Source: Dinochytrium kinnereticum
Lineage: Eukaryota; Chytridiomycota; Chytridiomycetes; Chytridiales; Chytridiaceae
Direction of reading: 5' to 3'
NCBI GenBank assembly: GCA_027604005.1
Contig: JADGJT010000251.1
Coordinates: 1-34,694, forward strand
DNA: 34,694 nt
Positions 44-33,723 of the stretch are shown one piece after another (the stretch's first letter is position 1; the number at the start of each line of letters is the position of its first letter). A model generated the notes under the pieces. That model saw only the letters and a program-made list of their open reading frames with translations. It ran no database searches and was not told the DNA's origin. The position numbers and the translations under genes were made by a program.

Positions 44-3000
44 ATGCGCAGCGTCAGCGTTCTTCAGAGGGTGTTTTGGGAGGTGTGAGAGCAACCGCCG
101 TCAACCCTTCAACTAATGCACAGTAGCACGACTCGCATTCCATCGGACAGCCCCCTCCGCGGTCCGTCCTAGTAACGGGACTTCCGCTCAGCCTACCCCA
201 CTCCGAATTACTCGAGTTCTTTGAGGGTTCCGTCAAAGCAACATTGGAAGAATGCAAGGAAGCCAACCGAAGCTTGGGGATTGCTGTCATTGAGTTTGGC
301 GGAGACAATGTCAAGGCTGGTAACCTTGCGCTCAAGGCCATCAAGAAAGAAAATGGGGCGTCCATTGGAGGTTCGATTGTTAGAGTGGAGTTTGATCCGA
401 CTGGGGAGAAGAGGAGGCGGGCTGTTGCGGCTGCTAGAGGAAGTAAGGAAGATGGCTCAAAAGTGCCGCAAAAGGGGCCGCCATTGGATATAAAGCCCTT
501 CCCGACGCCGGCGTTTTTGCCTGCTACACCTTTTTTGGCGCCAGTGAATGTGGAGAACCTGTCAAGTTCATTGTCTAAACCGGCATCTGCCTCATCATCT
601 CCGAAACGCCAGCTTTCTTCGAGCTCTTTGAATTCAGAGTTGATGCCTCATGCATGTCCCTCCGGTTTGGTTTCAAAGAAGCTTCCCTCCATCGCCATCC
701 CCACACTACCAAAACTAATACCGCCGGTAATGAGTTGATCATCCTTCTTTCGTGAAAACCAACCCATGTTATTCCAACACTTACCACTCCACAGCTCCCA
801 TCTCCCTGGAGATCATCCAACCCATCAAATCCTACCTCGCACTCCATAACTCCCTCCGCGAAAGTCGGCGTCGTCGATGACTTCAATGACCCCCCTCCTC
901 CAGGCGTGACTGACAAAAGACTAAATCTGTCCCTCCCCTCTAAACCTCCCCCGGAACTAAACATGGCTACTCTTGAGCTCCTAAAATCTTCTGCGTTCCC
1001 TCCACCTCTCCGAGGCTGTAAAGAGAATGAAGCACGATCCCGAAGCATTTCTGCGGAAGCAAGTGATTCGAAGGTTCGGAGGTCTAGTAGCCCTTCGCAG
1101 ATGAAGGACGGGAGACGGATGGTGGATAGCTACGTTGCTGGATATGCGAGAGATAGGGATCATAGAAGATATGAGCCGTTGGATAAGAGAGACATGCATT
1201 GGAGTAGGGACGGCGCGAGAAGAGGCTCCTATGAGGTAGATAGGGGGTCTTCTTTGAGGAAGAGGAGTCGTAGCAGAAGTCCTATTCGTGGTAAATCTCA
1301 TGAATTTCCGCCGAATAAGAGGTGGAGTCCGGATAGAAATCGTTGCCATTCAAGCTTTTTCGGTATCCTCCACTTTTCCTTTTTTTTATAAGTCTAAAGT
1401 GTATTGCAGATGATCGGCGCGACAACTTCCGCTATACTCCTAGAGAAACCCGCGACCCACTGATGACGAGTTCCTATCATCACAGGGAAGCGGCATCAGG
1501 AAACCCTCCTTTATCCAGGTCGAATTCTTTTCACAACCGGCCACATCTGCCTTCTAGTGTTCCATCACATGATCATCGGTAAGAGATGAGCCAATGCGGT
1601 TTAAATTATCATGCCTTATTTATTTTTATTTTATAAAGCCACAACGTGAGAGACCGCAACGAGCGCGCTACGACTAGCGCCTGTATTCTTATCACCAAGG
1701 ACCTGAAAGAATACCTGCAAAATGATATTCGACGCGTGGTTGTCGCTCCTATCGTTAATGCGTTTCTGGATGAGATGCAACGCAGTGCGTCAGAAGAGAA
1801 GCTTACAAAGGAGGTCAAGTCGGAGGTCTTTGAAGCCTCAGGTGATGCTAAGCCACCTCTTGAGATCAAAGGTATTTTTCTCCATATTATGGCTAGCTCT
1901 CACTGCCTTGTCTCAGTTTCCGAGATGCCCCCATTGGTGATCTCTAGCCTTCCATCCTTTAAAAGGAAAGTCCGGTCTTTCGTTCAGGACTCAGCCAGCA
2001 GCGAAAAATCAAGGAAGTCGCCAGACCTATTTCAAGCGGATGATAGAGGCGAGGATTCGCGTGAAGCCACTTCTCCCCGCCGGAGAAGTGTTTTGCTGGA
2101 TGAGCGGCCTTCAAAGAGGGAACGAGTGAAAGACTCTGGTGATGATTCAGATTCTCCCGTCGTCAGGAGGAGTCGTAAGCTCGTTGAAAGTCAATCCAAG
2201 GACGAGGATGCCCCGAAAAGGTTTAGCAGGAAGCATCTTGCTGATATTCTGTACACTAGTAGCGAGAGTGGAAGCGATAGTGAAGAAGAGGCTGAGTCTT
2301 CCGAAAATGACGTTGCGGTACGAAAGGCGGCTAATGAGGAAAAGGGTGCTGGGACAATAGAAGCGGAGCATGTACCGGAATCCACTGAACCCGATTCGTC
2401 AAGGACGACTAAGGCCGGTCCTAGGCGCTTGATTCAGCGATCAGCCTCTGAAGCGGCTGTTCCGGATAAAGACGCCCGGCCTTTCCCAGCCGAAACCCCA
2501 GTAGCAGTCTCCTCTCCTAGAAAGCCATCTCGTCGTGCAAAGAAACAAAAGAGGGTACGAAAGCCTATAGATTCTAGGGATACCCATATGATCATAGTTG
2601 CTCCTCGATCGCCTCGTATTCCAATACAGTTTCCCCCTTCCCCGGATTATCACCTTGACGACACGTTTTGGGACAGGATGCACGAGATGGAAGACAGCCG
2701 TGTTACGGCCATGCAGACTGACGTGATAACAAATGGGGCCGTGCAAGAAGATGTTCAAGTCGAAGTCGAGGACTTGGACTTTAGCAATATTGACTTAGCG
2801 ACTGGAATGGGAATGGGGTGTGATCGTAATGAGGAGGACCTGGCTTTTTTGAGACAGGCAGTTGAAGAGGAGATCTGGCGGCGCCGTACCCCTAAGCCAG
2901 ATTCATGTAACGAACCTGAGGATGCTAAAGTAGAAGGGGTTGTCGCTTTTAGTCGTAAAGAAGCTCTTATTGCGAACGAAACCATTTTCGAAAGACACAG

Positions 3001-3890
3001 AACCGGTAGCGCTCGCACCGAAGGGTATTATCCTATCTCTGAAACCGACAAGACGATTCAAAGACGTCTCGCTAGCATACAAGACCTCTCTGATGCCGAA
3101 GCGGACGTAACTCCGACTTCTTATGCTCCACCAATGGCAGCGGCCGTTCAACCCTCAAAGGCCAACTCCCGAGCAGAGCGCGTCCAATATAGACAGCTAG
3201 CACTGGGCTACCGGACCATGCCGTCGGCCTTAACTCCAGGACACGCATTGACTAGTTTGGAGACGAGCCATATTGATATTGCTAAGTTCGGGCAGCTGAA
3301 GAACAGGAAAAAGAAGATTCGGTTTGGGAAGAGTACTATTCACGATTGGGGTTTGTTTGCGATGGAGCCGATTGAGAACAACGATATTGTTATTGAGTAT
3401 ATCGGGGAGATTATAAGGCAGAAGGTTCGCATTCATGCTGATATTTGTGGACTCATAGTTTTGGCAGGTAGCTGATCATAGGGAAAAAATGTACGAGAAG
3501 TCCGGGATCGGTAGTAGTTATCTTTTCCGAGTGGATCAGGACACTATTATCGACGCGACAAAAACAGGGAATCTTGCAAGGTTCATCAACCATTGCTGTG
3601 ATGTAAGGAAGCTCTTTTGTCTCAGACCTCCTTATAAAGCAACAAATTCCTTAGGGCAATTGCAACGCCAAAATCATTTGCATCGAGAACGAGAAGAAGA
3701 TTGTGATCTACGCGAACCGCGACATTAAGGAAGGCGAGGAAATTACATATGACTACAAGTTCCCCATTGAAGAGGACAAGATACCCTGTAACTGTGGCGC
3801 GGAGGTAATAGATCACAACTCCCTTTTTGAATCAACACTGAATCATTTCCTTGCCAACCTTATCAGAAATGCCGCGGTTACTTAAATTAG
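44..3890 (+). CDS. SET1: SET1-type histone H3K4 methyltransferase (COMPASS catalytic subunit)
   Basis: Methylates lysine 4 of histone H3 as the catalytic subunit of the COMPASS complex in the nucleus. The rebuilt chain has nine exons: 44-70, 127-726, 795-1362, 1410-1578, 1639-1871, 1917-3424, 3468-3602, 3655-3804, 3867-3890. They sum to 3414 nt, or 1137 residues, in frame throughout. An RRM fold starts near residue 23 (VLVTGLPLS... GIAVIEFGG). A long Ser/Arg-rich, low-complexity middle follows, then the N-SET motif [14 protein letters not shown] and the SET core ([46 protein letters not shown]). The post-SET tail CNCGAEKCRGYLN ends the protein, as in Set1/Trx enzymes. The start at 44 was chosen because it joins in frame to the RRM exon; it is the least certain part and the true start could lie left of the window. 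The stop lies 10 bp from the convergent HCCS stop. Set1 is favoured over Trithorax/MLL by the RRM and compact C-terminus. Confidence 0.93.
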
Positions 3891-4848: not shown

Positions 4849-7166
4849 ATGCAGGTAACCGACCCCTGCGCATTGTGCATCCCCTGTCAACCGCTGGATT
4901 CCACATCGCTGCCGGCTGCATGGCCTCCCTGGTGCTAACCTGCCGTTGAAACGCAGTGCCATGATGTGTGGAATGCATCCCTCTCTGAGCAATGTGCATT
5001 CGTGAAGGAGCACTGCCCGGAATCCTCGGGCATCTTTGACTTCCTGAGGCTCAACTTCTGCTCCATGCAAGCGTTCCAGACACCATTTACCGCATTCATT
5101 GTAAGCTTCAAGTCTTGTCGCATGCTTCGCTTCCTGATACCACCTTCCATCCAGATCACTCTCGTGTTGTTTCTGTTTCTGTGGTTTGGAACGACGGCTG
5201 GGGACTTCTTTTGCCCCAACGTGTCCTCCATCAGCAAGCTTCTTGGGCTCACCGAAACAGTTGCTGGGGTGACCTTGGCAGCTTTGGGGAATGGGGCGCC
5301 AGACATGTTTGCAACTTTCTCGGCCATGAGGTCTGGGTCTGGGATGCTTGCATTGGGAGAGTTGCTTGGCGCAGCTCTATTTATCACACTGATTGTTGTG
5401 GGTGCTGTTGCTTTAACAGCTTCAACCACCTTACCAAGGTAACCTTCACTGTATGTTTCAATCTAACAAATATGAAGGCGACCTTTAATACGTGACATCC
5501 TCTTTCTGATTTTCACGGTTTCCATGTACTGTTACTTCAAACCTTTATCGCTGAACTTTAAAATAGAGTCCTTTTCGTCACAAAGGATGGCAAGCTGACC
5601 CTATTAGAGAGTATCTCCATGGTTCTCATGTACCTTGGTTACGTCTCCGTCGTCGTTATTGGACATGTAATCCATCAGAAGAGCAAGCGTCGAGTACTGG
5701 AATTAGAGGCTGCAACGCAGGCGTTGGTCTATGAATCCGGTGATGGTAATTGGACATCCAAACCTTTTTGAGCTGAACATCTTTGCTGTCGCATTATCCA
5801 TCAGACGTTCCATCTCAATTGGGAGCTACGATGCTCATGGGGGACGAAGAAACATTCTATGATGACGACGAGGCTACCACTTCATCAGCCTTTGTTCCGC
5901 ATATCGCTTCTGAGCATTTTCCTTTTCTACGAGGATTGTCCGACTTAACTGGCGGGCGCGGGGAGTACTCGCTTCTTGATTCATCTGCAGAAGAGACGAC
6001 CCGGGGATCCATTTCATCCAAGTTACCTTTTTCAGAAGTTACACGTTTCCTTACGCCAACATACTACTCCTGGTCCCAGATGTCGATACCTCACCGGATT
6101 TTAGGGGTCATTACCTTCCCAATTATCTTTATGCTTCGACTCTCGATACCAGTCATTTACTCTGAAGAAGTTGAGGCTTGCCTGAAGCAAGCCACCGATT
6201 CTTTTCGCGGTCAAGAGCCTATTTCGTTGCTGAACGCAGAAGAGAGCGATACGGAGGATTTGGACGGGGAGAGTGGAAATGGAAAATCCAGTGATTGGAT
6301 CTCAGTCCTGCAGCTATTCTGCGGGCCGCAACTCATTGCTTTCATTCAAATTCGTGAGTACTGAGTTACGAAAAGCGCATTATCTTAAAAGATCTTTTCT
6401 TTTTGCTCCTCTTTCAGGTTGGGCAGGTGCGGGTGAGATGGCAGGGCTTTGGTTGGGTTCGCTTCTCATTGGAGGGATCCTTGGATTTGTTTATATGCGT
6501 TTTGTCCGTCAGGTGAAGATGCGCAAGCTTGTGATGCTCTCAACAACTGGATTCATAGTTTCCATATTTTGGATATATGGTAACGCATTTTAGGAATTTA
6601 AAAGGAACTGACCACCTTAAGCCATTGCGAGTGAGTTGGTAGGCCTTTTAGAAGCTGTGGGTGTTATTTTTAAGATTAAAGACGCGGTTATGGGTCTTAC
6701 TATTTTTGCCCTGGGCAATAGTTTGGGAGGTAAGTGAATTTTCCTATTATGACTCTATGACTCTGACAGATTTCCGATTAGACCTGGTAACCAACATGTC
6801 TATTGCTCGCATGGGATCACCAGCCATGGCTCTTGGCGCCTGCTTTGGTTCCCCTATGATGAGTATGTATATTAATTCTTGTCGTTGTATTTTGTTTCCG
6901 AAACGATAGCGTCATTAACTTGCACTTCAGACATCCTTCTCGGTGTCGGGGTGACGGCAACCTCCATAATACTACCATCTGGGAACCCTTACATCCTTGG
7001 CCAATCTGCCATCCTTCAAAACACATGCCTCGCCCTCCTAATCTCCCTGGCAATCACATTGCTCCTTGTTATTGTCGCTAAATTCAAGATCGACTTCAAG
7101 GTTGGATGGGTTCTTCTAGTGGAATACGCCATCATTGCATATATTATCTTACAAACAAAAGCTTAA
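4849..7166 (+). CDS. NCLX-type sodium/calcium exchanger (CaCA superfamily)
   Basis: An antiporter that exchanges Ca2+ for Na+ (or Li+/H+). Relatives are mitochondrial NCLX/SLC8B1 in animals and a vacuolar/ER homologue in yeasts. Ten exons: 4849-4854, 4957-5100, 5155-5438, 5478-5525, 5567-5745, 5805-6353, 6418-6579, 6622-6729, 6782-6862, 6931-7166. They total 1797 nt or 598 residues. A Cys-rich N-terminal lumenal segment (CHDVWN..SEQC..VKEHC..FLRLNFC) precedes the first exchanger domain, with DFFCPN and alpha-1 repeat GNGAPDMFAT. A long acidic loop follows (LMGDEETFYDDDEATTSS, SDTEDLDGESG). The second domain has alpha-2 repeat FALGNSLGDLVTN and GACFGSPMMNILLGVGV, ending in hydrophobic helices. 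The first coding exon is just ATG CAG. The intron at 5101-5154 is 54 nt and open, so retention would insert 18 residues. The stop is 33 bp from the convergent ATG4 stop. Confidence 0.93.
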
Positions 7167-7199: not shown

Positions 7200-8735
7200 T
7201 CAAAAGGATTCGTTGTCAGACATGACTTCGGCGTCGAGAAAATCGGGTGTCTTTTCTTGGACTGAGAATAAAGGTGTTCTGCTTTCCGTCAGCTGGATAG
7301 ATGCCAGATTGGTGTTTAGTGTTGCATTTGGGGAAAAAATACTCCTTACAGGTGACATCTCCTTTAAGAATTGTTGATAAGAGAGTTCATCTTTGCAGTA
7401 AAACGCTGCTACCATCGACGGGTCTACTGAATCTAAGCTGATGCTACGAACCGTTGGACAATGGTAGCTTTCCAGATCCTTTAATGACATTAGAAATTAT
7501 CGTCTCAAAAATAATAGCATTGCAAACCTCGAAACTATACGATGAACCATCTTTAACTTCGACCGCTAATTATGTTAATAATTATTCAAAAAGATTTCAA
7601 CAAGATGGAATCCTCACCAACACGCATATAATGTGGATCGAGGTATATTAGGGAGTCCCCCTGGTACCCCATAAAAAATAGCGATGAATTAGGGCGTCCC
7701 CTTAAAAATGGAAGAAAAAAACATTTCCCTCAGTACTCTAAAACCAGCTAATAAAGGCTAGTTACCCTGCAATCCCAACACAGAACTGAGATTGGAAGCA
7801 GAACTAAAATACATAATAATTAAGAATCGCACCACACAACGACACAGTTAAAGTCAAAACTACCTTCAAATGCGGTACATATAAGGTGTTTAACGAATCC
7901 AGCCCAAGCCTTAACGGCACAACGAGCAAAAGTGGCATCCAAATCTTCTTCCCGTCATCGGATCTCTTTTCACACGTGTGTCTAACCTCGTCCATATACA
8001 AAACTCCGTCATTAACAACATGCAATGATAATGGAGCTTCTTTATGATTTGATAATAGCACTCTAATAGTTAAAGCGAGTAAAGGAATCAGTCTATCTAC
8101 CACCCTGCAACGAACACCACCTTAAAACCTGCGAAATAGTCGATGGTCCAAACCATTCACCTATCTCCTTTCCAAACTGCTTGCCAATTAGTGCTATGCG
8201 GTGAATCGAGTATGTGCTGGAATTCGAGTCCAGGAACCAGGAAACCGTCTGTGGCCAAGTTAGTGGAAGAAAAATGATAATGGCACCTCCACATAGAGCT
8301 TCCACTCTCTACTGGACAAGCTCGGTCTTCTTCTCCAATCTACGCTTTTATAAGCAAACCGAAAGAAGGACACCCCGAAATAACGACCCTACCTCTTCCC
8401 AACAAATGCAACAAGAATGCATTGGACAGCATCATCTGCCCAGACCTCAGCATGCATCCCCAGCCAACGTCTGCCGTATATCCACTCGGTTTAATGGGGG
8501 GATAAGAGTGCCGATACGTCATCCAGAGCTTTGACGCAAAGTCTTCAAGGAACGCCTCGTCTTTAACACCAGAGTACTTGTTTCCAAGAAGCCACACCTC
8601 ATCACCGCCAGGAGAACGGTCACTAATCTGACGAAAGCTCTCGGCGGCAGCGCTTATTAGACTCGACACGCCTGATTTGAATTGCTCCCAGAGGCTGGAA
8701 TCGTTGTCGGTCTCCACGCCACCCCCTCGGTCCAT
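7200..8735 (-). CDS. ATG4: ATG4 cysteine protease (peptidase family C54)
   Basis: Cleaves the C-terminus of Atg8 to expose its glycine and later releases lipidated Atg8 from membranes during autophagy. Eight exons: 8735-8393, 8339-8287, 8248-8121, 8062-7864, 7803-7766, 7700-7624, 7565-7528, 7478-7200. They sum to 1155 nt or 384 residues. The catalytic Cys is residue 94 in DVGWGCMLRSGQMML. The catalytic Asp-His lie in LIYLDPHYM (exon 6, about 7640). The conserved GRPNSSLFFMGYQGDSL and ESYHCPTVRSI..DSVDPSM blocks are present, as is GEWFGPSTISQVLR. No obvious LIR motif was checked at either end. The gene is tandem and downstream of CSE1, with only 38 bp between stop and start, and convergent with NCLX. 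Introns are 38-65 bp. Confidence 0.95.
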
Positions 8736-8761
8736 CGTTTGAGCTTGTCCCCAAAATAATA

Positions 8762-8767
8762 TTTATT
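8762..8767 (-). terminator. AATAAA polyadenylation signal of CSE1 inside the 38-bp gap to ATG4
   Basis: The plus strand reads TTTATT, so the minus strand reads AATAAA, 6 nt after the CSE1 stop codon and about 26 nt before the ATG of ATG4. Its place fits a 3'-end signal for CSE1. The upstream mRNA would then be cleaved inside or very near the start of the next gene. Confidence 0.5.
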
Positions 8768-8773
8768 GATTGT

Positions 8774-11700
8774 TTAACCCAGCAAGGAAACAACGGCTGG
8801 AGGCAAGACATTGGCCTTGGGAGAATGCTTGAGGCGAGACATCTCCTCCATCACGAATTGTTTGTGGTTGGCGATGCCAGCGGTTCGGTCTTTCCGCATC
8901 TTGGTGGCGGACGAGAGCTTGACAAAGTTGGATTGGTAACCTTGCCCCTCCAAATCCAAAACAGTTCTGTCATTGTTCAAGTTCTCGTCTCGTTCCGCGT
9001 CAGCAATCTGCAAGAGGTCCGAAATAATGTTCAGTAGTTCCGGCCTGAAAAAAAGGCTCAGTGTGAGACTAAAATACGCGGATACGAAAAAAAAAAGGCA
9101 ATACGCGAGAATGCCAATACTAACCACAAAGAAAGGTTAGGTGCCTCCAACATCTTGGACGACGTTGTCAACAACCTAGCAAAGGCAACGCAAATAAGCT
9201 TCCTATCGGTAGGCGAGTGGCCCTGTTCACCCAAAAACGGTATAATGATAGACCTCAAGACCTTTGCAAATAGTCTGAATAACGTTAAAGTTTATTCTTA
9301 CTTATCCAACTCACCCTGGCTCAAGACTATCAAAGATCCCAATAACCATGTCGGCAGTCACATTCTGCTTGTCACTTAAAAAGAGATTGCAGAGGAATCG
9401 GACAAATGACCTAGTGAATTTGGGGGTCCGGCTGCTCATCAGCCTCTGCAAAATAAGCAAAAAGATGTTCTTGTGGAAGTTGGCCAGAGTCTCCCTATAG
9501 AAAAGAAAGTTGAAAAGAAGTTCGAAAAATGAATAGCCCTTACATCGGAATCATATCGTAAATGGTCTCAAGGAGGTCAAACCCATACTGGTCATTCATT
9601 CGCGAAGCAATCAGCTTCTGATAAACACCAAGAATTTGAGGGATCTCACTATGCCCAATATTCCCACTCTTTCCCTTCTCCAAAAAGATTTCGAGTAAGG
9701 CCACCAACGCCGGAATGTTTCCTAAAAATAAAAAGGTAAAACAGCGGTACAGATACATGAACTGGGAAGATATGACTCACCATGGGACTCCCATAAAACA
9801 GGAAGCAAGATAGGCTGGAACATTGGCGCGTAGGCGGTTGGAATTCCTTCCTCCTTATGCAAAGAAAGCATTTGGGAAAACAATTGGAACACATACGGTG
9901 TATACTCTTTTCCAGTTTTAGCAAAACAGATCGCATCACAAGATATCTCCTTACCCGAAATATCCTGTTGAAGAATGGCCTGAAACGGGGGAAACAAAAC
10001 GGCCTCAAACTGCTCTAACAATCGTGGGTCAACGGCGCTCACGTTACTATAAGTATTTAGTAGTGACCATTAACAAAAGCCATTAAGTGATATGTACCGG
10101 ATCAATAAGCCCAACGACTCAAACAAAAAGTGGTTGAACTTCGGGTTGGACGGGTTCGCAGAAATAACCTGCAAAATAGCGTTGAACCTATTCAACAGCT
10201 CCCCGACATATTCAAGAATGTCGGCTCCCATCGTCGCGATCAATCGAGTCACAGCTTAAAAAATTATTAGTATAGATACGAAGAAAAAAAAGGGCCGAAA
10301 ACTTACCTTTTAACGCATAATCATTCTCAGCAACCTTCTCGGGGGTGGGACCGCCCTTGTACATCAAAGCGAAAAGACCGGTGAACATATTCTGAGCAAA
10401 CGGCTTGAGGTCAACGTTCGTAATGCTGCAAGAAAATTCAATAGGCGTTCGAACTGGATAGAGCATTACGAGAAAGAGCTGTCCGCCTTCACCAACAGGA
10501 TCCGCTCAATGCACACAGCCGCGTAGGTTGCCACGATCGAGTTTGCCGACGTCAGATGCTGAGCCACGAATGGAAGAATATCAAGTGTTTGCTCTTTCGT
10601 CAACTAGAAGGGAAAGAAGAGGAGTTCGTATGCAAATGAAAATATACAAAGAGCGAATCACCTGCGCCCGGAAAGTGGTAGTAAACTTCAACGCATCGAC
10701 CCTAATAATGTCCTTGACCTTCCCAGTAAACGGGGTTTTGAGATCGGGAAGAACGTGCATCAGAAAAATCGGCATCGGGTTAACAAGCTCGTTTAACTTT
10801 GTCACGCCGGCCTATCGAAATGTTAGATGAGTGTCTCTTTTGAATAGTCATACGATGCTTGAGAAACTACGTGCAGCGAGCGCCATCACCAGGTAAAGTG
10901 CGGTATCCTTAGACTTCCAGTTCTCGATGGGGTCTTTTTCGTAGTTCTATTTGAAGAGAATTTTAGTCTCAACTCTACGGGGACTAAGTACAACCTCGAA
11001 GTACAACTTTAAGTAATTCATCATGATGACAGTGATTTCGTTGTTGAAATGCTCAAGCAACCCTCTGATTAAATCTGTTGCTGACTTTCGCCGTGTTTCA
11101 AACTCTTTGAATATCGTTAGTCTAACCGTGTCAGTTGACGTAAAATTAACGCACCAGATCCTTCAAGGTCGTGACGAATAACCTCAAATCCTCCATCCTC
11201 AAACTGCTCCTCATCGATATCTACACATACGTGAATTTGCGAGTGATAATGAAGCTAAAACCTCTCAAGGTGATGTTTGGAAGAACAATTTTCTCGCAAA
11301 TGCTCTGAATGATTTCCGGATTCTCAAACATAGCCTTATGCCTCGCTGGTTTTACCACCACAGTCAAGAAGTCCATCGCTTTGCAAATAAGCTAACTCAG
11401 TGTTAGACTAAAGGAACATGGAGGCACTCAACAGTATCATTTCTCGTTTGAGGTCCCAATGTCGTCAATAGGTTCCAAATAATGGTAACAAAATCGGGGA
11501 GTCTTGGGAAGTCTTCCTCATATTTCGAGGCGTAGAGAGCAATAACCTCACAAATGGCAGACTTGACCTTTTCAACAATCGTTGCCTCGTCGTCATCCTT
11601 AAAAAAAGGAGGGAATCAGATGGAAAATGAAAATAAGAATACGGGCGGTTAGGAGCCTACCGAACTGCTTCCAAAAAGAGGGTTGCTGTAAAGCAGATAC

Positions 11701-12614
11701 TTTTGGAAAAATGACATAAACTCTTCCTGGTGGTTTTCAAAGAATTCCGGGAGGTCTTGGCAGTTAAGACTGAAGAAAATCTTAACGAGGAGGAGGAGGT
11801 TTTGGAATAGTATTTCGAGGGCCTTCTTATCTTGGGCATTGGTGTCAATAAGATTGTCTGTGGTCTAAATAAAAGTCAGTCGACGATTATGGTCCTGTTC
11901 CATCCCACCTTGAAGAAAAGAAGGAATGGCTCCGAAAACTCCTCCAGGACCTTTTTAATAGCCAAAAACAGAGTATCGGTTCGCTCTTGGTGACGCCATC
12001 TGCGTAATTAAGTAAAGCATAAAGAAAAAGAATCACCTTTTAAAAATAGAATGCAAAGCCTGCAACACTCCAAGGTTCATCGTAAAATCCTCCATAGTCA
12101 GCTTGCTCACAAGTTCCTATCGCGGGAGTCAGAACTTTCTCATCCACAACCTTCATACCGGAATCAAATTCGGCCATCTGTCAGGAAACTCATCTTCAGC
12201 AATAAGAGCAATAGATTCGCTCAACTGCAACTGCAAATTACCCCTCAGCGCTCCAAGCCCTCCAACAACCGCTGCTTTAATGGACTCCCGTTCACCTCCG
12301 CCAATGCTGGACGCCTGGCCCTCCTTTAATTGTAAGTCGGGCATTAAGAGACCACCGAATACCTCCTTCCAACACTTCTTCACAAGGTTTTTGAAGTACA
12401 CTATACCAGCGAATCGAACTGTGAGATCGATCGCATCACTTTGGCAAAGGTTTAAAAGCGACAAGGAGAACCCTGCTGTTTTTTCCATCGCCACTAAAGC
12501 TACCTCCGCTATGTCATGTGTCATTACAGACAGAATGTTGGCCATGATCCTACCATTCTTTCGTGCTTCGGCATGAGGTGAGAGTGTCGCTTGGAGGACT
12601 TCGACAATCTGCAT
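8774..12614 (-). CDS. CSE1: Exportin-2 / Cse1 (importin-alpha re-exporter)
   Basis: A HEAT-repeat karyopherin that returns importin-alpha to the cytoplasm with RanGTP. The N-terminus (LQATLSPHAEARKNAEVALV, after removing a 45-bp intron at 12553-12509) is the importin-beta N-terminal repeat. VRFAGIVYFKNLVKKCW and LQLQLSESIALIAEDEFPDRWPNLIP follow, as in Cse1/CAS. Downstream exons match the Cse1 order: HVLPDLKTPF..VDALKFTTTFR (about 10.7 kb), ENDYALK..VTRLIATMGADILEY (10.3-10.2 kb), NPSNPKFNHFLFESLGLLIRYI, ILPVLWESHGN|IPALVALLEIFLEKG, LGVYQKLIASRMNDQYGFDLLETIYDMIP, and a tail GQGYQSNFVKLSSATK..VLPPAVVSLLG. The gene is split by roughly 15 short introns, not all of whose borders I fixed. Exportin-1 is excluded by the C-terminal Cse1 blocks. 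The start ATG at 12614 gives the expected N-terminal length. Confidence 0.93.
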
Positions 12615-12886
12615 GGCTCGTGAAGTGAAAATTCAAATTGTCCGAATGTGTCAAATCCTCCTGAGAAATGCGGGAGCTCACAAGGATATTCGCTGCAGGT
12701 GCTGGGAACAGTTGCTAAGGCCTTGGAAATGTACAATATTAAAAGTAGGGAAGAACATCGAGATATTTTCAACTTTATTATCACGTCGACGTGATGATTG
12801 AAACGCGATGCTCCGGCTATTTCTGCATTTCATCACACAGGCTCGAGCGAAATGAGCAACTACGGCGAAAAAATTCAATTTCCAGC
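12615..12886. other. 272-bp intergenic region upstream of CSE1
   Basis: It lies between the CSE1 start and the CatSper2 stop, both on the minus strand, and is one of the two longest gaps in the window. No reading frame with recognisable protein similarity, tRNA or repeat is seen. It contains a perfect 16-bp palindrome (listed separately) and is the natural place for the CSE1 promoter and the CatSper2 3' end. Confidence 0.6.
12780..12795. promoter_or_regulatory. Perfect 16-bp palindrome ATCACGTCGACGTGAT
   Basis: The sequence equals its own reverse complement over 16 bp and contains two CACGT half-sites around GTCGAC. It sits about 165 bp upstream of the CSE1 ATG, in otherwise AT-rich DNA. Such CACGT/ACGTG half-sites are typical of bZIP/bHLH dimer sites; the function here is inference. 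Confidence 0.35.
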
Positions 12887-15050
12887 CTATGTATCATGAA
12901 TCTCCAAAAGTGCACATGCTATGGAATATTTATAGCGATCTGTTGTTTTAAAAAACAATCCGTGACTTACATGCTAGTAGTTGAAGCTCTTCATACTCCT
13001 TCATGTTTTCCTTTACAAATTTAGAGCCTCTTTTAAATCTTTCACTTACTTGAAGGTTCTCCATCAATTGGAGGTACTGTTTATTGTATTGAGTCCATAA
13101 ATGTGACACGATAAAACTTACTTTGAATAGCGTGTCTCGTGGCCACATGGTCTCGGACTGACTAGAAGCCAGACCAGCAAGCGTCTCGCCGACTGTCGCT
13201 TCCCACCCTGGTGCCTATTCAACATCATATTATAAAGTTTTAATACCTCGGGACATGCCATGGCTGGCAACCAGAAGTTTTTGAATGGACTGAAGAATAT
13301 CCTGGTCCTTCCTATTCAAAAATCAACAATTTCAATGGCAATCAGGAACTACTCTGGATTGTTTTCCTCAGCAGGATTATTCTTTTCCTCTGATCGAAGG
13401 CTGTTTCTGCTTCCTTCTGCATTTTCTTTCAAATTTGTCCTATTTCGCGTTATTCTAAATCGACTCGAGATGACCTACAATGATTTCTGCAACTGTGCAC
13501 CAATCGCCAGCTCCTTGTTCAATTTTCTCCGAAGTTTTTCAAAGCGTTTCAACTTAGCAGTCTCATTCTTTTCTTCCTTCAAGTTCTCACTTATTTTATC
13601 AAAGTTGTTGACTTTGCAAATTATTAGTTGTGATAAAATACTGGAATACGTACCCATTACACCAACAAAGATATTTCGAAAAATGTAGGCTCCTAGCCAT
13701 ACCCAGGACAGAATGTATAGTTGTGACCAGACGGGATCGGTAAACTGGGCTGCTTCTCTGTTAAGAGGGTCCCATTGATCGAAAGTTAAAAGCGCGAATA
13801 AGGTTTTGAAAGCAGATCCTATATCTCTACAATGCAAAGAATTTTCGAATTAGGTCGACCAAGTTAAATCCACTAACTGGAAGCTATCTTTGTAAAGGAG
13901 CTTATCTGATGTTGCCAATGTCCAGCTTTTGTAAAGGTATATTCCAATGACGGCATAGATATAAGCAACAACGATCACCAACATTGAAATATAAGTCATG
14001 GACTTAAAAGACAGTTATATGACTAGCTCAGAAAAAAACAAAAAACCTGAAAAGCTTGTATAATTGTTATCACCACAATCTTTAAACTTGGTGTTCGTAA
14101 AACGATCTTAAATATCCGCGCGACCCGAAAAGCCCTGGCCTCCCCTCCAAAAGTCCTCAAGAACTGACCTGTAGTTTCACTGAGATCTACAATTTCGGCA
14201 ATAGCGGACTCAATCACATTAGACCCGGAACGGAAATGAGTGTACCATCAAAACAATTACGAAGTCAGCAATATTCCATCCAGACTTCCAATAATCCTCA
14301 AAGCTATCTATCCATTTCAACGAAATCTCCATCAAATATATCATGAAAGCGAATATATGAAGTATTCTGATAAAGTGAAATAGCGCCCAATAATTTTCCT
14401 GGGTCTTCCATAGCTCTATTTAATTCCTCACATCAGCTAAATTTCAAAAATAATTAGACGCACCGATTTCAATGCCGATAAACAAAGAGTCCGTCAGAAG
14501 AATCAGCCATAGGAGATTGTTGAAGTAAGAATCTTCTGAAATCAGTTTTTCGTGGACATAATAAGACTATGAACCACGAACGACCCATGCAGCCCATGCT
14601 CCTATAGGAAGTGAATTAACATTCCTTGTCCTGGTTAATCTTCTGTCTGTTTTAATCTCATTGTTTGATGTTTGCTGAGTTCGTTTGAAGACCTTTTTTG
14701 GTTTTTGTTTGTCAGAACCGACCCTGAAGTTTGAGATGGAGACCAACCTGGAACTTGATGAGCTGATGAGGATTCTCCACCAGAATTTTAGAACGGGCTT
14801 TAGGATCTACAAGCAGAATGTCAAGGGGAGTTGCGGCTTGCTTGACGTACCAGCGATGTCTCTGGAAGAATGCGTTGGGGCCGATCCCCTGTTGTTTGAG
14901 ATGTTGTCCAGCAGCTGGAATTCCTCCAGCAGCTTTGATCGGAATATCTGCGGTGAATGATCGTCAGCATGGCATGCTGGCGTGCGCACAGATTACGGTT
15001 GTCCGTGATGAGAGGTCATGGAAGGTGTTCTCTGGCGCTGCCGAGGCCAT
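12887..15050 (-). CDS. CatSper2-like flagellar voltage-gated Ca2+ channel subunit
   Basis: A pore-forming subunit of the sperm/zoospore-type cation channel, expected in the flagellar membrane. Fifteen exons: 15050-14997, 14947-14851, 14806-14748, 14656-14578, 14535-14464, 14415-14246, 14208-14047, 14002-13878, 13826-13654, 13611-13501, 13425-13353, 13311-13247, 13207-13122, 13076-12971, 12918-12887. They total 1464 nt or 487 residues, one six-helix domain. The N-terminal block RSKLLEEFQLLDN..DPKARSKIL..NPHQLIKF and AWAAWVVQDSYFNNLLWLIL (S1) follow CatSper2. S4 is ARAFRVARIFKIVLRTPSLK, with Arg/Lys every third residue. The pore loop is LFALLTFDQWDPL, matching the CatSper T-x-D-x-W filter. S6 is WVWLGAYIFRNIFVGVMVNNFDKI. 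The C-terminal GWEATVGETLAGL..MWPRDTLF and NLQ..YEELQLLA blocks are also CatSper2-like and separate it from CatSper1/3/4. The intron 13500-13426 (75 nt) has an alternative solution. The start exon MASAAPENTF is chosen by splicing frame. Confidence 0.9.
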
Positions 15051-15153: not shown

Positions 15154-15594
15154 ATGTTTGGCGCATTCAAGTCAACGCTGCTCTGTCTGGGCGGTCTGGT
15201 CTGGTAAGCAGCGACACCACCCCCCCTCTGCGCTCTGACGCTGTACTCAAGGAAGAGGCGCTTTCGCTTGACGTCCACGCAGAAGTACAGGCATCGGCTG
15301 CGGCTGCGGGCGGTCGATGGGGTAGTGGAGAACCTGGTCGCCTCAAGAGTGAACTTTGAGGCATTGGTGAGATCGCAGCATCCTGCAGTGAACCTCATGC
15401 TTATCCTCTTTACTCCATGCCAGAACAAGTGTCGGGCAGCCCCCAAGGAGAGCGAGATGACGGCGCAGCAAAAGTACTGGGTCCACTCCAAGCGATACCG
15501 GAATGAGATCAAGCCCGCGCACTGGGTGCCAAAGTGGACCAAGGTACCTTTTGTGCGCAGATGGCTGCCGTCCAGCCTGCACCAGTCCGAGTGA
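15154..15594 (+). CDS. MRPL31: Mitochondrial large-subunit ribosomal protein mL60 (MRPL31 family)
   Basis: A structural protein of the fungal-type mitochondrial large ribosomal subunit. Three exons, 15154-15203, 15252-15366 and 15424-15594, give 336 nt or 111 residues. The N-terminus MFGAFKSTLLCLGGLVWK is the family hallmark and precedes (S)TQKYRHRLRLRAVDGVVENL. PKESEMTAQQKYWVHSKRYR and the C-terminal WVPKWTKVPF follow, again as in MRPL31. Length is close to that of known members. The family is best known from fungi, which is one reason for the lineage call. It lies between the divergent CatSper2-like gene and the tandem Rotatin gene, 132 bp upstream of the latter. Confidence 0.9.
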
Positions 15595-18700: not shown

Positions 18701-21700
18701 AGGTGATAAACGCTATCGTTTGGTTTTTGATTGACAGTGTAATAGATTCTTAACGACCGTCCCATCTAGTGGACAAGATGAAGCCTTGCTCACTGAAGTG
18801 TTAAACTTGATGTCTTCTCTCGTATCATGGTCAGAGTTCCGCGCGGAGTTTAGTGCGATCGGTTCAACAGTCATGAAGACAACCCTCATCCCCATTATTC
18901 AACATTCGTCTCTTCCAGGGGATAACACTGAAAAAAGCCAGGTGAGCGACAGATACCATCTCGTCGTTCAGGTTTTCAGTTTTATGAAAACTTTGCTTCG
19001 AACCTCGCGCAGTCAGTTTGCGGAGATTATTAAAGGAACGGATTGGACGAATACACTCATTGGGTACCTTGGAGCGCACATACCCGTCGATAGACTAGAC
19101 GTGCATCATTATCATCAGGTTGCAGGTTGTTTGGAATGCCTTCTGCAGTATTTTGCTTTGGAAGATTCGACGGTCTGTAGAGACATTGGCCCTGAAAAAC
19201 TAGGAAGGCTTACGGGGCTACTGGTTCAATTTGTTAGCACCCTTTATAAATCTGCTACCATTCCTGGACGGAGCGATGAATTCACGTTTGAGAAAAGAGG
19301 GGTCTACCGATTGGCAGTTTTATCGTTACGATGCATCTCTCGTTGCTATTTGGACGCTTTTTCTATCCTAGATCGTGAGACGTGGAATCACGCATGGCTT
19401 TTCGACAACGATATCGATTACCTCGCTCACCTTCTAAACGATGACGAAGAATGCATCCAAAAAAATGGCATCGGAATCCTTGGCAACTTTATTCTAATGC
19501 CACAAAGCTACGACGCACTTTTCGCCAAAATCCCACACCTCATCTCAATGGCCTTTTCTTTCGCATTCGACCAAGACCGCGAGACGACGCTCAGGAAAGA
19601 ATGCTTACTTCTGATCAAGAACTTTGTAGTGGCGTTTTGCTTTGAAGATCATCAAAGCACTTTGCCGATTTATCTAGAGGAAGCAACGCGAGGGTCAGAT
19701 GAATCCATTGGGAAAGTTATAGAGATGTTTGAGAGTTGCGGATTGTTTGAGAATTTAGGGGCGTTAGGAGCGTCGGATGAAGGGGACATTGTGTATCGAC
19801 TTGCACTTTCGGAATTGGTTTTGCTGCTGAGCCTGTTTATCCCAGATGTTATCTATGAGAAAGTTAAGGCGAAGGATGCTTGGAAGTCTTTTGAACGCTA
19901 CCTGATAGACGATGAGCCGACGGGAGAATGCGAGCCAAACCATTCGGATATGGTTGATAAATTACGGTGTAGGCAGCGGAAGGTTTTGCATGCAGAGTCG
20001 GAGCTGCAAGTCTTTGAGAATATTATCCAAACGTTGCGACACTGCTCCTACAACCGGCCAACGGCAGTCTCATACTTTGTCAATCACACGGACCTGTTCA
20101 CTATTGTTCTGAACTTGATCGGTCGAGAAGATACCTGTTCCACGTCTCGACCAAAGCTAGAATTTCATGCCTTCCATTTGCTATCAGAATGGCTCTGGCT
20201 CTTCTCTCAAACTTATCCAGAAGCATTACTAGGCCTTTTTAAAATTGGAAGCCCTGGGATGAAAGTGTTTCTTTGGGCATGTGAAGAGATGTGCTCTAAT
20301 GTATGTTACAGAGACGGAGCATTATCTCTCTTTGTTGCAAGGGTGCTATGCTTGCATTGCAGCGAGATATTGGACTTAAACCTGACCGATATTCTGGGCT
20401 TCTCTAGTGGAATTGGGTGGAGACTAACTGAGGCGCTCTTTGATGCGTTTGTCAATAAGTTTCAGACTTGGGATCCCGTTATTTCGGAATCGCTTACTGT
20501 GTGTTTGCAATGCCTCTGTAGTAGATTTGAGTTTGCTAAGGAGTGCTTGGCGTCTGGTATAGTGTAATTGTGAGAAAATATTTGACTTTTTTTAAAGATA
20601 AAAAGATGCAAAGTTTGACTCAAAAAGGCATAGCAGCTTTCCATGTGGTTTGTGTCATTACAATGACTTGCCATTCTGATTCATGGTATTATAGACACGT
20701 ACAAAGCAAACTCGCATAGGATCTCAAATTCAACTCAAAGCAGTCGTTTCTATCATTCGTAACCTTGTAGCAGGGCCACAATTATTTATAGTAAGGGGCT
20801 TAAAAGCGCGTTACGTTAATATCTATTATCAGAACCACACATCGTTTATTATCATGTACAACTTCCTCTCCGAGATTCTCGTCTACTTTGACTCGTTAGA
20901 TCGCGACGTTATTCTAGAAACTCTCTCTGCACTGCAAAATCTGATCACGGGATCGAGAGGGATTGGCCGCAAAACTATCGGCACGTCAAAAGAGAGACAT
21001 CGGCAGGCTTTGTCTGAATCGTTGGTTTCTATTTTAAAATCTGCATCTGTAAGCTCGGATGTATTGGAACATGTGGTAGACTTACTTTGCGTTGTCTGCT
21101 TTAGTGGGATGCTCATACTACCTAATTTTTGGGTAAGTCCAACTTTTGGCTTAGGATCCTATTTTCCTATCATGTACTTAAGCCTCATCCGCAGCAGATT
21201 TTTTCTGCAGTTGTAGACGTATACACAAAGGCCAAGAAAGTCAAAAACATTGCGAGAATGAATCTGTTAATGAAGTTGACTTACTACTCTACTTTGACGC
21301 ACGAGTGTCAAGTGCATTGTTTAAAAACAGAGGGTAAGTCGTTTAATAAGTTATCTCTGACCATTTAGGTTTTCTTCTTTGCGTGTTAAATTCTATTGAC
21401 ATGCGGCCGATTAGTCCATATACTCTTTTGACCTTGAAGAATCTAAGTAGGCAGCGTGAAAGTAAGACGGTTCTCGTGAAGGAAGGTAATGGGAACAAAT
21501 CATGTCCATAATTGCTTACGTTTTGGTAGACACTTTATTTTCCTTGACTAGTATTCTAGAGTTGCCAAACTTATCTCCAGAAATATTTGAGTTGGTTTTC
21601 ATGGTGATATGGGCAATTATATCGGACAGTGAGAAGGTACGACACATATCCTTTTGGCTGCTAATCAGGTATGATAGGCGAGAGGCGCAGTTATAAATAA

Positions 21701-22030: not shown

Positions 22031-22711
22031 TTAGACGGCCTTTTCTCCCTCGGGCTCTGAAGCGGATTCCTCTTCCCTAGGATCCTATCAGTCATCTGTC
22101 GACAGGGCAATTTCCTCACCATGCCGCCGCCACCTTCCGTTTTGCACTAGGCTTGGATGCTTTCTTTTTAATTCCTAGAATGATTGATGTAAACAACCAG
22201 CAACTGTAAAATAATTATAATAATAATAATGATAATATACCCTTGCTTATTGTATCCTTCACATTTTCTAACACTTTGGCGTGGTCCTCCGTGAACTTCG
22301 TGTCATTAAACCGGATCTTTTGTGTTTTTGGTTCCTGCATCCCTTTTTCGATTTTCTCCTTTACCGCCTCGGTCTTCCTTTTTTTCCGCTCGGGTTCTTT
22401 TTCCAGGAACTCTGCAAGCCTGTGGTCCATTTAGAGAATTCTGATTATAGCTCGACGTACTTTTTCGCATCGTTCACCGTTTTCAGTCGGCGTCCCGACA
22501 GGTCCCTGCACGCCTCAAAGTTTGTGGTTTTCTTCGAGGCCATCTTGCCTCCCTGAGCCCTAAGCATCGACCCGAAGCCACCCTTGCCTCCCCTGAGGCG
22601 CAGGGGCTCATGAAGGTCCTCCTCTTCGCAGTTGCCCGTCGTCTCAATTGCAGCTTCCTTCGAGTCCATCCTGTTGTACAACGTATTGAACAAAAATTCG
22701 GAGGCCATCAT
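22031..22711 (-). CDS. SDE2: SDE2, ubiquitin-fold splicing / genome-stability factor
   Basis: SDE2 proteins are made with an N-terminal ubiquitin-like fold that is cut after Gly-Gly; the released C-terminal part joins the spliceosome for selected introns and supports replication-stress responses. Exons 22711-22461, 22419-22241, 22174-22120 and 22076-22031 total 531 nt or 176 residues. The processing site [19 protein letters not shown] is intact, followed by [17 protein letters not shown] and the helical Sde2 region. The tail is basic then acidic ([14 protein letters not shown]). Only about 42 residues precede the Gly-Gly, so the first strands of the ubiquitin fold appear to be missing from this model. 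The ATG used overlaps the clathrin ATG on the other strand. A more upstream exon within the clathrin 5' region, or a start at Met-14 (about 22671), are alternatives. Confidence 0.85.
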
Positions 22712-25700
22712 GGGGGAGTCGCTTCCAATTCGGTTCCAGGAACATGTGCAGGTGTGCAGGCGAATGCGATTGCCGGGATATATGCGGCGCTTGCGCGTTG
22801 CTTGGATGTATCCGCAAGATCGCCTTTTCCAATGGAGGTTGCTGACCGCGCACTTTCTTTTTTCTTCCTCGCCATCAAAGCTGCAAGCGCTGGGTATCAA
22901 TGCCGCAAACATTGGGTTCAATACTCTCACCATGGAGTCCGACAAGTTCATCTGCGTACGCGAGAAGGTCGGGGAGCAGAACCAGGTGGTCATTATCGAC
23001 ATGAATGACCCGCAAAATCTCATCCGACGGCCGATTACCGCGGACTCTGCTATCATGAACCCTGCGACGAAAGTGATCGCTTTGAAAGGTTGATTTATCG
23101 GTTCAGCCTGGAACTAATGATGGGTTCAGCTGGTCGCCAGATTCAGATATTTAATATCGAGATGAAGGCCAAGGTAAAGGCGCATGTAATGGCCGACGAA
23201 ATCGTCTTTTGGAAGTGGATTAGTGTCAACACGATCGCCATTGCGACTGAGAAGACTGTTTACCACTGGTACTCGCTTTTCTCTTAGTTTTTTTTTTGAC
23301 ACCGTGAAGGTCGATGGAGGGCGAATCCCAGCCAGTGAAGCAGTTTGATAGGAACCCTAACTTGGTTGGATCTCAAATCATCAACTACCGCATTGATCCG
23401 GAGGAAAAGTGGCTTCTGTTGATAGGAATTTCTGCGCAGGTTTGGGTAATGCATTGGACTTAGCTAATAGGAAAGAACGGTCGAGTTGCCGGCAACATGC
23501 AATTATACTCAAAGGAGAAGGGTGTGAGCCAGCCTTTAGAGGGTCATGCTGCTGCTTTCGCCGAGTTGAAGCTTGATGGCGCCACTGCAAACACCAAGCT
23601 ATTCTCGTTCGCTGTCCGCACCGCTACGGCTGCAAAGGTATGAGCAGAAGCTTTACTATTCTTAACGGAATATAGTTACATATCGTTGAGATCGATCACA
23701 AGGAAGGCCAGCCAGTTTTCCAGAAAAAGGCTGTGGATGTGTTTTTCCCTCCCGAGGCGGTGAATGACTTCCCTGTTGCTATGCAAATTAGCAAGAAGTA
23801 CAATATCATCTTCCTCGTTACGAAGTATGGATTTATTCACCTTTACGATTTGGAAAGCGGAACCTGCATCTTCATGAACCGTATCAGTGGTGACACTATT
23901 TTCGTTACTGCCGAACTGGAGAGCACTAGCGGTCTGATTGGGGTTAACAGGAAGGGACAGGTAGATAGATTTGTGTCTGAGACGAATTCATTAAAATACC
24001 CAGGTTCTATCGGTGTCAGTTGAGGAGGAAACGATTGTTCCTTACATTCTTGGAACACTGAACAACATGGATCTGGCTCTTCGTTTGGCTCTTCGAAACA
24101 GTCTTCCTGGAGCCGATAACTTAATTATTGAGCGTTTCAATGCATACTTACAAACCGGAAATTTCTCGGAAGCCGCCAAAACCGCGGCTCTTTCCCCCAG
24201 GGTATACACATTAGATTAAAAGGCATCTAATGGTTTTTAGGGAATTTTGAGAACCCCTGCCACTATTGAGCGTTTCAAGGTCGCCCCTGTGCCAGCGGGT
24301 CAACTTTCTCCCATCTTACAGTACTTTGGAATCTTGCTTGAGAAGGGCGAGTTGAATAAGTTTGAGAGTATTGAGCTTGCTCGGCCCGTGCTGCAGCAAG
24401 GGCGGAAGCAACTTTTGGAGAAATGGCTTAAGGAGGATAAGGTGATATTATCTAGATCTTACATGTTAAGTGCTTACGGACCATTAGCTCGAATGCAGCG
24501 AGGAGCTCGGAGATATTGTAAAGCAGGTAGACCAAACATTGGCCTTGTCTGTGTACCTGCGAGCCAATATCCCCAACAAGGTAAGCTCTATTGCTATTTT
24601 TTATGTTATCCTTATAATTGTAGGTTATTGCTTGCTTTGCAGAGACCGGCCAATACAACAAAATCATCCTTTACGCTAAGAAGGTCGGATACCAGCCGGA
24701 CTATACATATCTTCTTCAGTTTATCATGAGGCTGGATCCCGAAAAGGGAACAGAATTCGCGACTCTTCTTATTCAGGACGAATCTGGGCCTCTTGTGAAC
24801 GTGGAGCAGATTGTTGACGTGTTTGCCTCTTTGAACATGGTCCAGCAGGCTACCTCCTTCTTGTTGGATGCGTTGAAGGAGAACAAACCAGAGCATGGGG
24901 CTTTGCAGACTCGTTTGCTGGAAATGAACCTTTTGCATGCTCCTCAGGTTGCAGATGCTATTCTTGGGAATCAGATGTTCTCCAACTATGACAGGGCTTA
25001 TATTGCAACTCTGTGCGAGAAGGCCGGTCTTTATCAAAGGGTATTGTGGTTGCTTCTCATGCTTTTCTAAAAATTTTAAGGCTCTTGAGCATTACACTGA
25101 TATCTATGATATCAAGCGTACCATTGTTCACACTCAGCTTTTGTCTCCTGAAGTAAGATATAATTTGCGAAGACTTAGATATTAACTTTCATAAAAGTGG
25201 GTTATCAACTTTTTCGGCAAGCTTTCAATCGACCAAAGCATTGAATGCTTAAAGGAGATGCTCACCAACAACATTCGTCAGAACCTTCAGGTTGTGGTTC
25301 AGATTGCCACAAAGTACTCAGATCAAATCGGTGCTTCTCACCTGATTAATCTCTTCGAATCTTTTAAAAGCAACGAAGGTATACCGTATATTGCTAAGTT
25401 GAGTTTATAATTAAAATTTGGACAGGTCTTTACTATTACCTTGGCTCCGTTGTAAACTTGAGCCAGGACCCTGAAGTTCACTTTAGGTATATCCAGGCCG
25501 CTTGCCGCACGGGTCAAATGAAGGAAGTAGAGAGAATTTGTAGGGAGAGTAACTTCTACGAGCCTGAGAAAGTGAAGACGTTCCTGAAGGTAGTAATATC
25601 TTAAAAAACGTAACATACTTAACTCTCTGAAGGAGGCGAAGTTAAGCGACCAGCTCCCGCTCATTATTGTCTGCGACCGCTTTGACTTTGTTCATGACCT

Positions 25701-33043: not shown

Positions 33044-33723
33044 ATGCCTGTGAGTCTGCCGCCGCTGGCGACGACCTGCGCTAACCACCCCGCAGGCCTT
33101 CCACTCAAATTACAACCAAGGCGACTACAGGGCCATCGGAAACACGGCCATCCTCCCCATCAAGTCTAAGCTCAGGGGGCCTGCGCCGCCGCTGACAGGT
33201 ATCTGGAGCAAAGGCTGCGTGAGGCTGCTGACACCACCGCAGATCCCAACGCGGACGACATTGTGGACGAGGCCATCTACTACTTCCGTCCCAACTGCTT
33301 CTTCCGCAACTATGAGATCCAGGGTGGAGCTGACCGAGTCCTGATCTACCTCATCCTCTTCATTCAGGAATGCATCCTCAAGTTGGCGGCAAAGAGCCCC
33401 ACGATTGTTGAGGGCCAGAAGCTTCTCTCCACGCATGCCCTGCAGAACTTTGCTATACCCGGAGAGGCTGGATTCCCGCTCAGCGCCATGTACGAGAAGC
33501 CCGCGACCAGATCGGATTCGGGTAAGGATAGGGGTGAATGGCGTTTGCATGCTAAGATAGATTTCTGTCGCCAGATCTCATGAGGCAGTACTTTGGCCAG
33601 CTCCGTCAGGAGGTTGCCGCGCGGCTCGTTGCCAAGGTGTACGAGGGCGATAAGCTCAGCAAGTGGTGGATGTGCTTCTCCAAGAGGCGGTTCATGGGTA
33701 TCTCTGGCGCGGGGACGCTGTGA
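33044..33723 (+). CDS. ARC18: Arp2/3 complex subunit 3 (ARPC3, p21)
   Basis: A subunit of the seven-part Arp2/3 complex that nucleates branched actin, used in endocytic patches and motility. Four exons, 33044-33049, 33096-33198, 33243-33521 and 33575-33723, sum to 537 nt or 178 residues, the same length as the human protein. The first exon is only ATG CCT. The product reads MPAFHSNYNQGDYRAIGNTA..ILPIKSKLRGPAPP, then DIVDEAIYYFRPNCFFRNYE, ADRVLIYLILFIQECI, FAIPGEAGFPLSAMY, and KLSKWWMCFSKRRFMG. All match ARPC3 in order. It is 42 bp upstream of the Elongin-B-like gene on the same strand. Confidence 0.96.

Follow-up and report, generated by a model that had tools for sequence, protein, structure and literature searches.

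A CatSper2 gene in the chytrid Dinochytrium kinnereticum, its candidate channel partners and the residues of their selectivity filters

The CatSper2 gene and its neighbours

The window analysed here is the whole stretch of 34,694 nucleotides from Dinochytrium kinnereticum, which NCBI places in the Chytridiales. Its minus strand carries a genuine, full-length gene for CatSper2, one of the four proteins from which the calcium channel in the tail of animal sperm is built. The gene runs from a start codon at 15050-15048 to a stop ending at 12948, and its 14 introns, all GT-AG and 37-55 nt long, leave a single frame across 495 codons. The gene and its parts are as follows.

12948..15050, minus strand: CatSper2 gene, ATG to stop, 15 exons, 495 aa
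15050-14997, 14947-14851, 14806-14748, 14692-14578, 14535-14464, minus strand: exons 1-5 (GT-AG joins, frame kept, orthologue match)
14415-14246, 14208-14047, 14002-13878, 13826-13654, 13611-13479, minus strand: exons 6-10 (same basis)
13439-13353, 13311-13247, 13207-13122, 13076-13050, 13010-12948, minus strand: exons 11-15 (same basis)
14918..14941, minus strand: N-terminal block RSKLLEEF, aligned with RSKLIDTF of mouse CatSper2
14582..14602, minus strand: pre-S1 block GAWAAWV, aligned with SLWAGWV of mouse CatSper2
14095..14142, minus strand: S4-like segment EARAFRVARIFKIVLR, basic residues at regular spacing (alignment)
13772..13789, minus strand: pore loop LTFDQW, with the selectivity-filter Asp codon GAT at 13780-13778
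13125..13207, minus strand: C-terminal block WEATVGETLAGL..MWPRDTLF, outside the channel domain, in the second phmmer stretch to mouse CatSper2
12817..12970, minus strand: alternative 3′ end with a stop at 12817 and introns 12970-12887 and 12863-12823, proposed by a gene finder on a weak basis

Intron 3 was drawn at 14747-14693 rather than 14747-14675 because at this place the orthologues P0001 and P0003 have KFQVFKR. A preliminary model with the longer intron, 489 aa and six residues short, was the query of the phmmer, Pfam and protein-database searches described below. An earlier note on this DNA had given a product of 487 residues and a gene end at 12887. Its exons do join into one frame, but the length differs from the 495 aa found here, and 12887 is where the first intron of the alternative 3′ end finishes, whereas our main model stops at 12948. 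The gene finder also flagged the intron-3 acceptor of CatSper2 and exon joins in the CatSper1 and CatSper3 genes; because part of its training came from the CatSper2 gene, its agreement with our model of this gene is circular.

The other genes of the window were located by Pfam matches.

1637-3475, plus strand: exons of a SET1-type N-SET protein
4939-5442, plus strand: sodium/calcium exchanger exon (PF01699)
8340-8762, minus strand: ATG4
11403..12632, minus strand: Cse1/exportin-2 exons (PF03810 and PF08506)
15208..15594, plus strand: mL60, mitochondrial ribosomal protein L31 family (PF09784, E 8.2e-18), divergent to CatSper2
22614-28207, plus strand: clathrin heavy chain exons
31000-31509, plus strand: AMP deaminase exons
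33170-33583, plus strand: ARPC3

The two neighbours recognized in the earlier note, mL60 and Cse1, were recovered by PF09784 and PF08506. A 610-codon open frame at 18735-20567 (plus strand) gave no Pfam match at E 0.001. The sodium/calcium exchanger may be a Ca2+ partner of the channel, or may lie here by chance. At least two deposited CatSper2 models also carry a neighbour's domain, namely ATG4 in P0005 (Blyttiomyces) and ARPC3 in P0011 (Chytridium); since both genes share the window with CatSper2, they are possibly old neighbours and the fusions possibly annotation errors.

Identity of the CatSper2 protein

Pfam Ion_trans (PF00520) matches one stretch of the product (residues 105-346 of the 489-aa model) with 108.9 bits (cut-off 25). 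Within the domain we take EARAFRVARIFKIVLR to be S4, judging by the alignment and by what is generally known of this family, and the CatSper2 pore motif T-x-D-x-W is present as TFDQW at 13786-13772. A CENP-Q match in the product (22.9 bits, below the Pfam cut-off of 28.5) was taken as chance. Among solved structures, the best phmmer match is mouse CatSper2 (PDB 7eeb chain B, E 2.9e-61), well outside what chance would give, in two stretches (15-409 and 403-485, numbered on the 489-aa model). The second pairs with residues 493-581 of the mouse protein (i-Evalue 6.9e-06) and includes the C-terminal block, in which WEATVGETLAGL lies at 13205-13170 and MWPRDTLF at 13148-13125. The alignment is thus nearly end to end, as claimed in the earlier note, which saw the CatSper2 match extend beyond the channel domain; the blocks it named (RSKLLEEF, AWAAWV and the C-terminal one) are all located in the gene.

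T-type Cav chains rank next in this search (E 8.5e-55), a score that could be read in favour of a fragment of a four-domain Cav or, more broadly, of a different one-domain channel (bacterial NaChBac type or EukCat). However, the Cav scores sum several repeats, and among the Cav chains with repeats printed the best single repeat reaches 69.1 bits, compared to 187.6 for the first CatSper2 stretch. CatSper3 (6.5e-17) and CatSper4 (3.6e-13) follow in the same search, with CatSper1 absent from the best 60 matches listed. A maximum-likelihood tree was built from 59 rows, including CatSper1-4, bacterial channels (five rows) and Cav channels (four repeats), with EukCat, TRP and polycystin channels outside its scope. 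In it a branch supported at 100/100 separates 18 CatSper2 rows, the window protein among them, from all others; within these the window protein is sister to the Irineochytrium annulatum protein at 100/96. Five changes, the minimum possible, suffice for the six labelled groups. The tree check suggested in the earlier note hence places the protein among the CatSper2 rows and separates it from the bacterial rows, the Cav repeats and CatSper1, 3 and 4, and we consider a channel of another kind extremely improbable.

A protein-database search with the 489-aa model, in which the 7999 candidates with the most shared words were scored, gave at least 57 matches. The named matches come mostly from zoosporic fungi (Chytridiomycota, Neocallimastigomycota, Blastocladiomycota and Rozella), and crinoid, lancelet and sea urchin proteins rank below. 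The earlier note was right in suspecting a zoosporic fungus, the organism being a chytrid, but it made too much of the find, since CatSper2 is already deposited for all four of these groups and CatSper in flagellated fungi has been published on. No deposited CatSper2 among the matches listed is closer than 56% identity, so the gene of D. kinnereticum is probably not annotated as such. Its absence from that database could also be taken as the mark of a decaying relic, which we think very unlikely given that all 14 introns are GT-AG, the frame is intact over 495 codons and four chytrid orthologues are 54-58% identical. Faulty annotation is likelier, and the deposited model of a second CatSper1 from this genome (P0079) skips exons too.

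The occurrence of CatSper in flagellated fungi is covered by a 2026 flagellum atlas (PMC13358043), whose available text mentions both CATSPER1 and CATSPER2 when discussing the 107 orthogroups that are specific to flagellated fungi but non-minimal, and describes CatSper as not universally retained in these fungi and outside the minimal flagellum. In the portions available of other papers, CatSper subunits were sought in Allomyces among other genomes (PMC5362262), or CatSper is merely used or cited (PMC3410928 and PMC4685582). From this atlas and the many deposited orthologues, CatSper2 in zoosporic fungi is already known; the pore pattern described below is the fresh part.

Partner subunits in the genome

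A profile search of the genome with Ion_trans gave 11 matches. Using rough exon joins, phmmer returned CatSper1 as the best one-domain structure match for contig C65 (1.6e-34), CatSper3 for the C158 copy at 26.5-27.4 kb (5.6e-30) and CatSper4 for C310 (5.3e-35), with some four-repeat Cav/Nav chains outranking CatSper1, 3 and 4 in these searches. The 59-row tree assigns CatSper1 (C65), a CatSper3 pair (C158) and CatSper4 (C310, in the CatSper4 clade). The CatSper3 pair is in tandem at C158:25082-27399, and its members are 70% identical to each other and sisters at 99/83. A second CatSper1 gene, at C122:34811-36367, was placed by blastp, outside the tree. A genome search with a CatSper2 orthologue found a single CatSper2 locus, that of the window, and otherwise matched weakly within the CatSper4 gene. 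Two deposited D. kinnereticum proteins could be read back from the genome: 350 of the 352 residues of P0133 (CatSper4) exactly from C310, and 263 of 264 residues of P0079 from C122. The exons skipped by P0079 leave the stretch from S1 to the pore missing. Three CatSper3 rows come from Chytridium lagenaria. Whole-gene models from the gene finder for C65 and the beta locus were poor and not used as such, and a predicted structure of CatSper4 (P0133 with 11 relatives; mean pLDDT 60.2, pTM 0.32) was too poor for use.

Two further subunits were found by profile. CATSPERB lies at C2:189313-189600 (CATSPERB_C PF15149, E 6.6e-26), with PF21548 (E 8.3e-08) matching another frame close by on that strand, and CATSPERG at C301:19468-20007 (CATSPERG_C PF22846, E 3.3e-18), matched again in two frames. 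The gamma propeller family PF15064 and the delta/epsilon families PF15020, PF22850, PF22844 and PF22841 had no match in the genome profile search, and no positive control responded for either set; the families concerned are the delta, gamma and epsilon propellers, a C-terminal family shared by delta and epsilon, and an N-terminal family of epsilon. The earlier note had proposed looking for these partners, and its expectation is borne out for CatSper1, 3 and 4, CATSPERB and CATSPERG, with delta and epsilon giving neither a match nor a responding control. The result is a fungal CatSper gene set of beta, gamma and four pore subunits, with CatSper1 and CatSper3 each present twice, which adds to the evidence that the sperm channel predates the animal/fungus split.

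Selectivity filters and proposed function

The available text of PMC2572835 calls the filter Asp of animal CatSpers "absolutely conserved", and that of PMC7041947 gives the mammalian filters as TVDGWTD for CatSper3 and TQDGWVD for CatSper4. We compared the corresponding residue among 197 proteins; the pore counts leave out 36 that could not be assigned to one family and 39 classed as bacterial or Cav. Phylum was looked up for nine taxa and taken from general taxonomy for the remaining ones. All 52 CatSper2 rows with a readable pore have TxDxW (56 rows classed; P0051, P0052, P0054 and P0055 lack the pore). In CatSper1, Asp is found in 21 of 23 readable rows; Sorochytrium has Asn instead and Entophlyctis Ala (two of 25 rows were excluded: P0118 lacks the pore, and P0128 is a weak match, E 3.8e-4, with Gly at the column). 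The CatSper3 filter is C[AG]DGW in 16/16 named Chytridiomycota among 24 readable rows, and TSSGW or TASNW, with Ser for Asp, in all four Blastocladiomycota rows from three genera. The other CatSper3 rows have Val in two proteins without taxon name (P0141 and P0163) and Asp in Thecamonas and one protein without taxon name; two of the 26 rows, P0162 (Glu at the column) and P0167 (Thr), end within the pore and were excluded. The CatSper4 filter is TQIGW, with Ile for Asp, in 11 of 13 readable rows, i.e. all ten named Chytridiomycota rows, D. kinnereticum included, and one row without taxon name. Asp is retained in the other two, from Sorochytrium (Blastocladiomycota) and one without taxon name (P0173 and P0196, of 15, were excluded).

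In D. kinnereticum, the filters read TTDTW (C65) and SQDTW (C122) in CatSper1, TFDQW in CatSper2 and CGDGW in both CatSper3 proteins, and the Ile codon of CatSper4 is ATT at C310:20004-20002. The pore of the CatSper3 pair is VCGDGW, the filter Thr being replaced by Cys. The genome therefore does not hold four filter aspartates: there is Asp in CatSper1, 2 and 3 and Ile in CatSper4, and a ring built jointly from these observed residues would be Asp-Asp-Asp-Ile. No Blastocladiomycota species is among the rows with both CatSper3 and CatSper4, and the full ring is found in no single blastoclad species.

The 11 TQIGW rows share 45-99% mutual identity (mean 60%), and 142 of 484 well-filled columns are invariant. 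With that many columns invariant, the constancy of TQIGW suggests selection to a modest degree. The five chytrid CatSper4 rows of the 59-row tree group together at 92/91. In a CatSper4-only tree with the pore columns excluded, deep forks are weak, several rows are very long and the fewest changes are two, so that a single loss of Asp in chytrids is not established by this tree. The CatSper3 tree likewise needs at least two changes. We suggest with some hesitation, and at rather less than an even chance, that the fungal ring may be asymmetric with fewer than four acids, via Asp to Ile in CatSper4 of Chytridiomycota and via Asp to Ser in CatSper3 of Blastocladiomycota, and that it may pass an ion mix unlike that of animals, perhaps monovalent ions or Ca2+ at lower affinity. 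Such a two-phylum pattern is weakened by the blastoclad rows, which give CatSper3 and CatSper4 in no single species: Sorochytrium keeps Asp in the one blastoclad CatSper4, yet its CatSper3 is absent from the rows and its CatSper1 has Asn. The Ala in CatSper1 of Entophlyctis also counts against it. The literature on the CatSper selectivity filter and on protists, so far as its text was available and with a 2014 paper on early CatSper evolution outside this coverage, holds no report of a change in the fungal pore.

The chytrid CatSper2 orthologue is very probably one of four pore subunits of a zoospore flagellar channel that would steer the beat. CatSper1, 2, 3 and 4 would form one heterotetrameric voltage-gated cation channel, of which CatSper2 would be one quarter, and CATSPERB and CATSPERG would be its outer subunits. 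Comparison with animal CatSper, together with the fact that flagellated fungi carry these genes, would place the channel most probably in the zoospore flagellar membrane. Depolarisation or alkalinisation may open it to Ca2+, and Ca2+ entry may alter the flagellar beat and with it the swimming path, by analogy with animal CatSper; on the same analogy, control of zoospore swimming by CatSper is likely. CatSper is not needed for swimming as such, because the available text of PMC13358043 has it not universal in flagellated fungi and outside the minimal flagellum.

That position outside the minimal set would also fit a true CatSper2 whose complex serves at another stage, for example in Ca2+ entry at encystment or germination, rather than in flagellar steering, and the available literature on CatSper in flagellated fungi holds no localisation data for the fungal protein. 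However, the atlas includes CatSper in the orthogroups it treats as specific to flagellated fungi (PMC13358043, available text), and D. kinnereticum retains four pore subunits together with beta and gamma. A role at another stage thus seems unlikely, if worth keeping in mind, and we prefer flagellar steering. The set offers a single-celled setting for asking what CatSper did before sperm, and since Ile occupies the CatSper4 filter in all ten named chytrid rows, natural channels can be compared to probe how many filter acids are needed for Ca2+ selectivity.

Compared with mouse CatSper2 (7eeb chain B), the window protein shares the ion-channel domain, TxDxW, the N-terminal RSKL, the pre-S1 WAxWV and the C-terminal WE..WPRDxLF, whereas a long Asp-rich stretch before the C-terminal block of the mouse protein has no counterpart. 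Its identity to lancelet and crinoid CatSper2 is 33-34%. The 54-58% identity to the chytrid orthologues (P0001 from Irineochytrium annulatum and others, four rows) extends over nearly the whole length and is ordinary divergence. In CatSper4 the filters differ: mammals have TQDGWVD and D. kinnereticum has TQIGW. The D. kinnereticum protein has CatSper4 as its best one-domain structure match and falls in the CatSper4 clade. With an Asp-Asp-Asp-Ile ring, the channel may be less Ca2+-selective than animal CatSper, and the neutral CatSper4 residue, as read from the gene, would argue against a simple transfer of animal Ca2+ selectivity to the chytrid channel.
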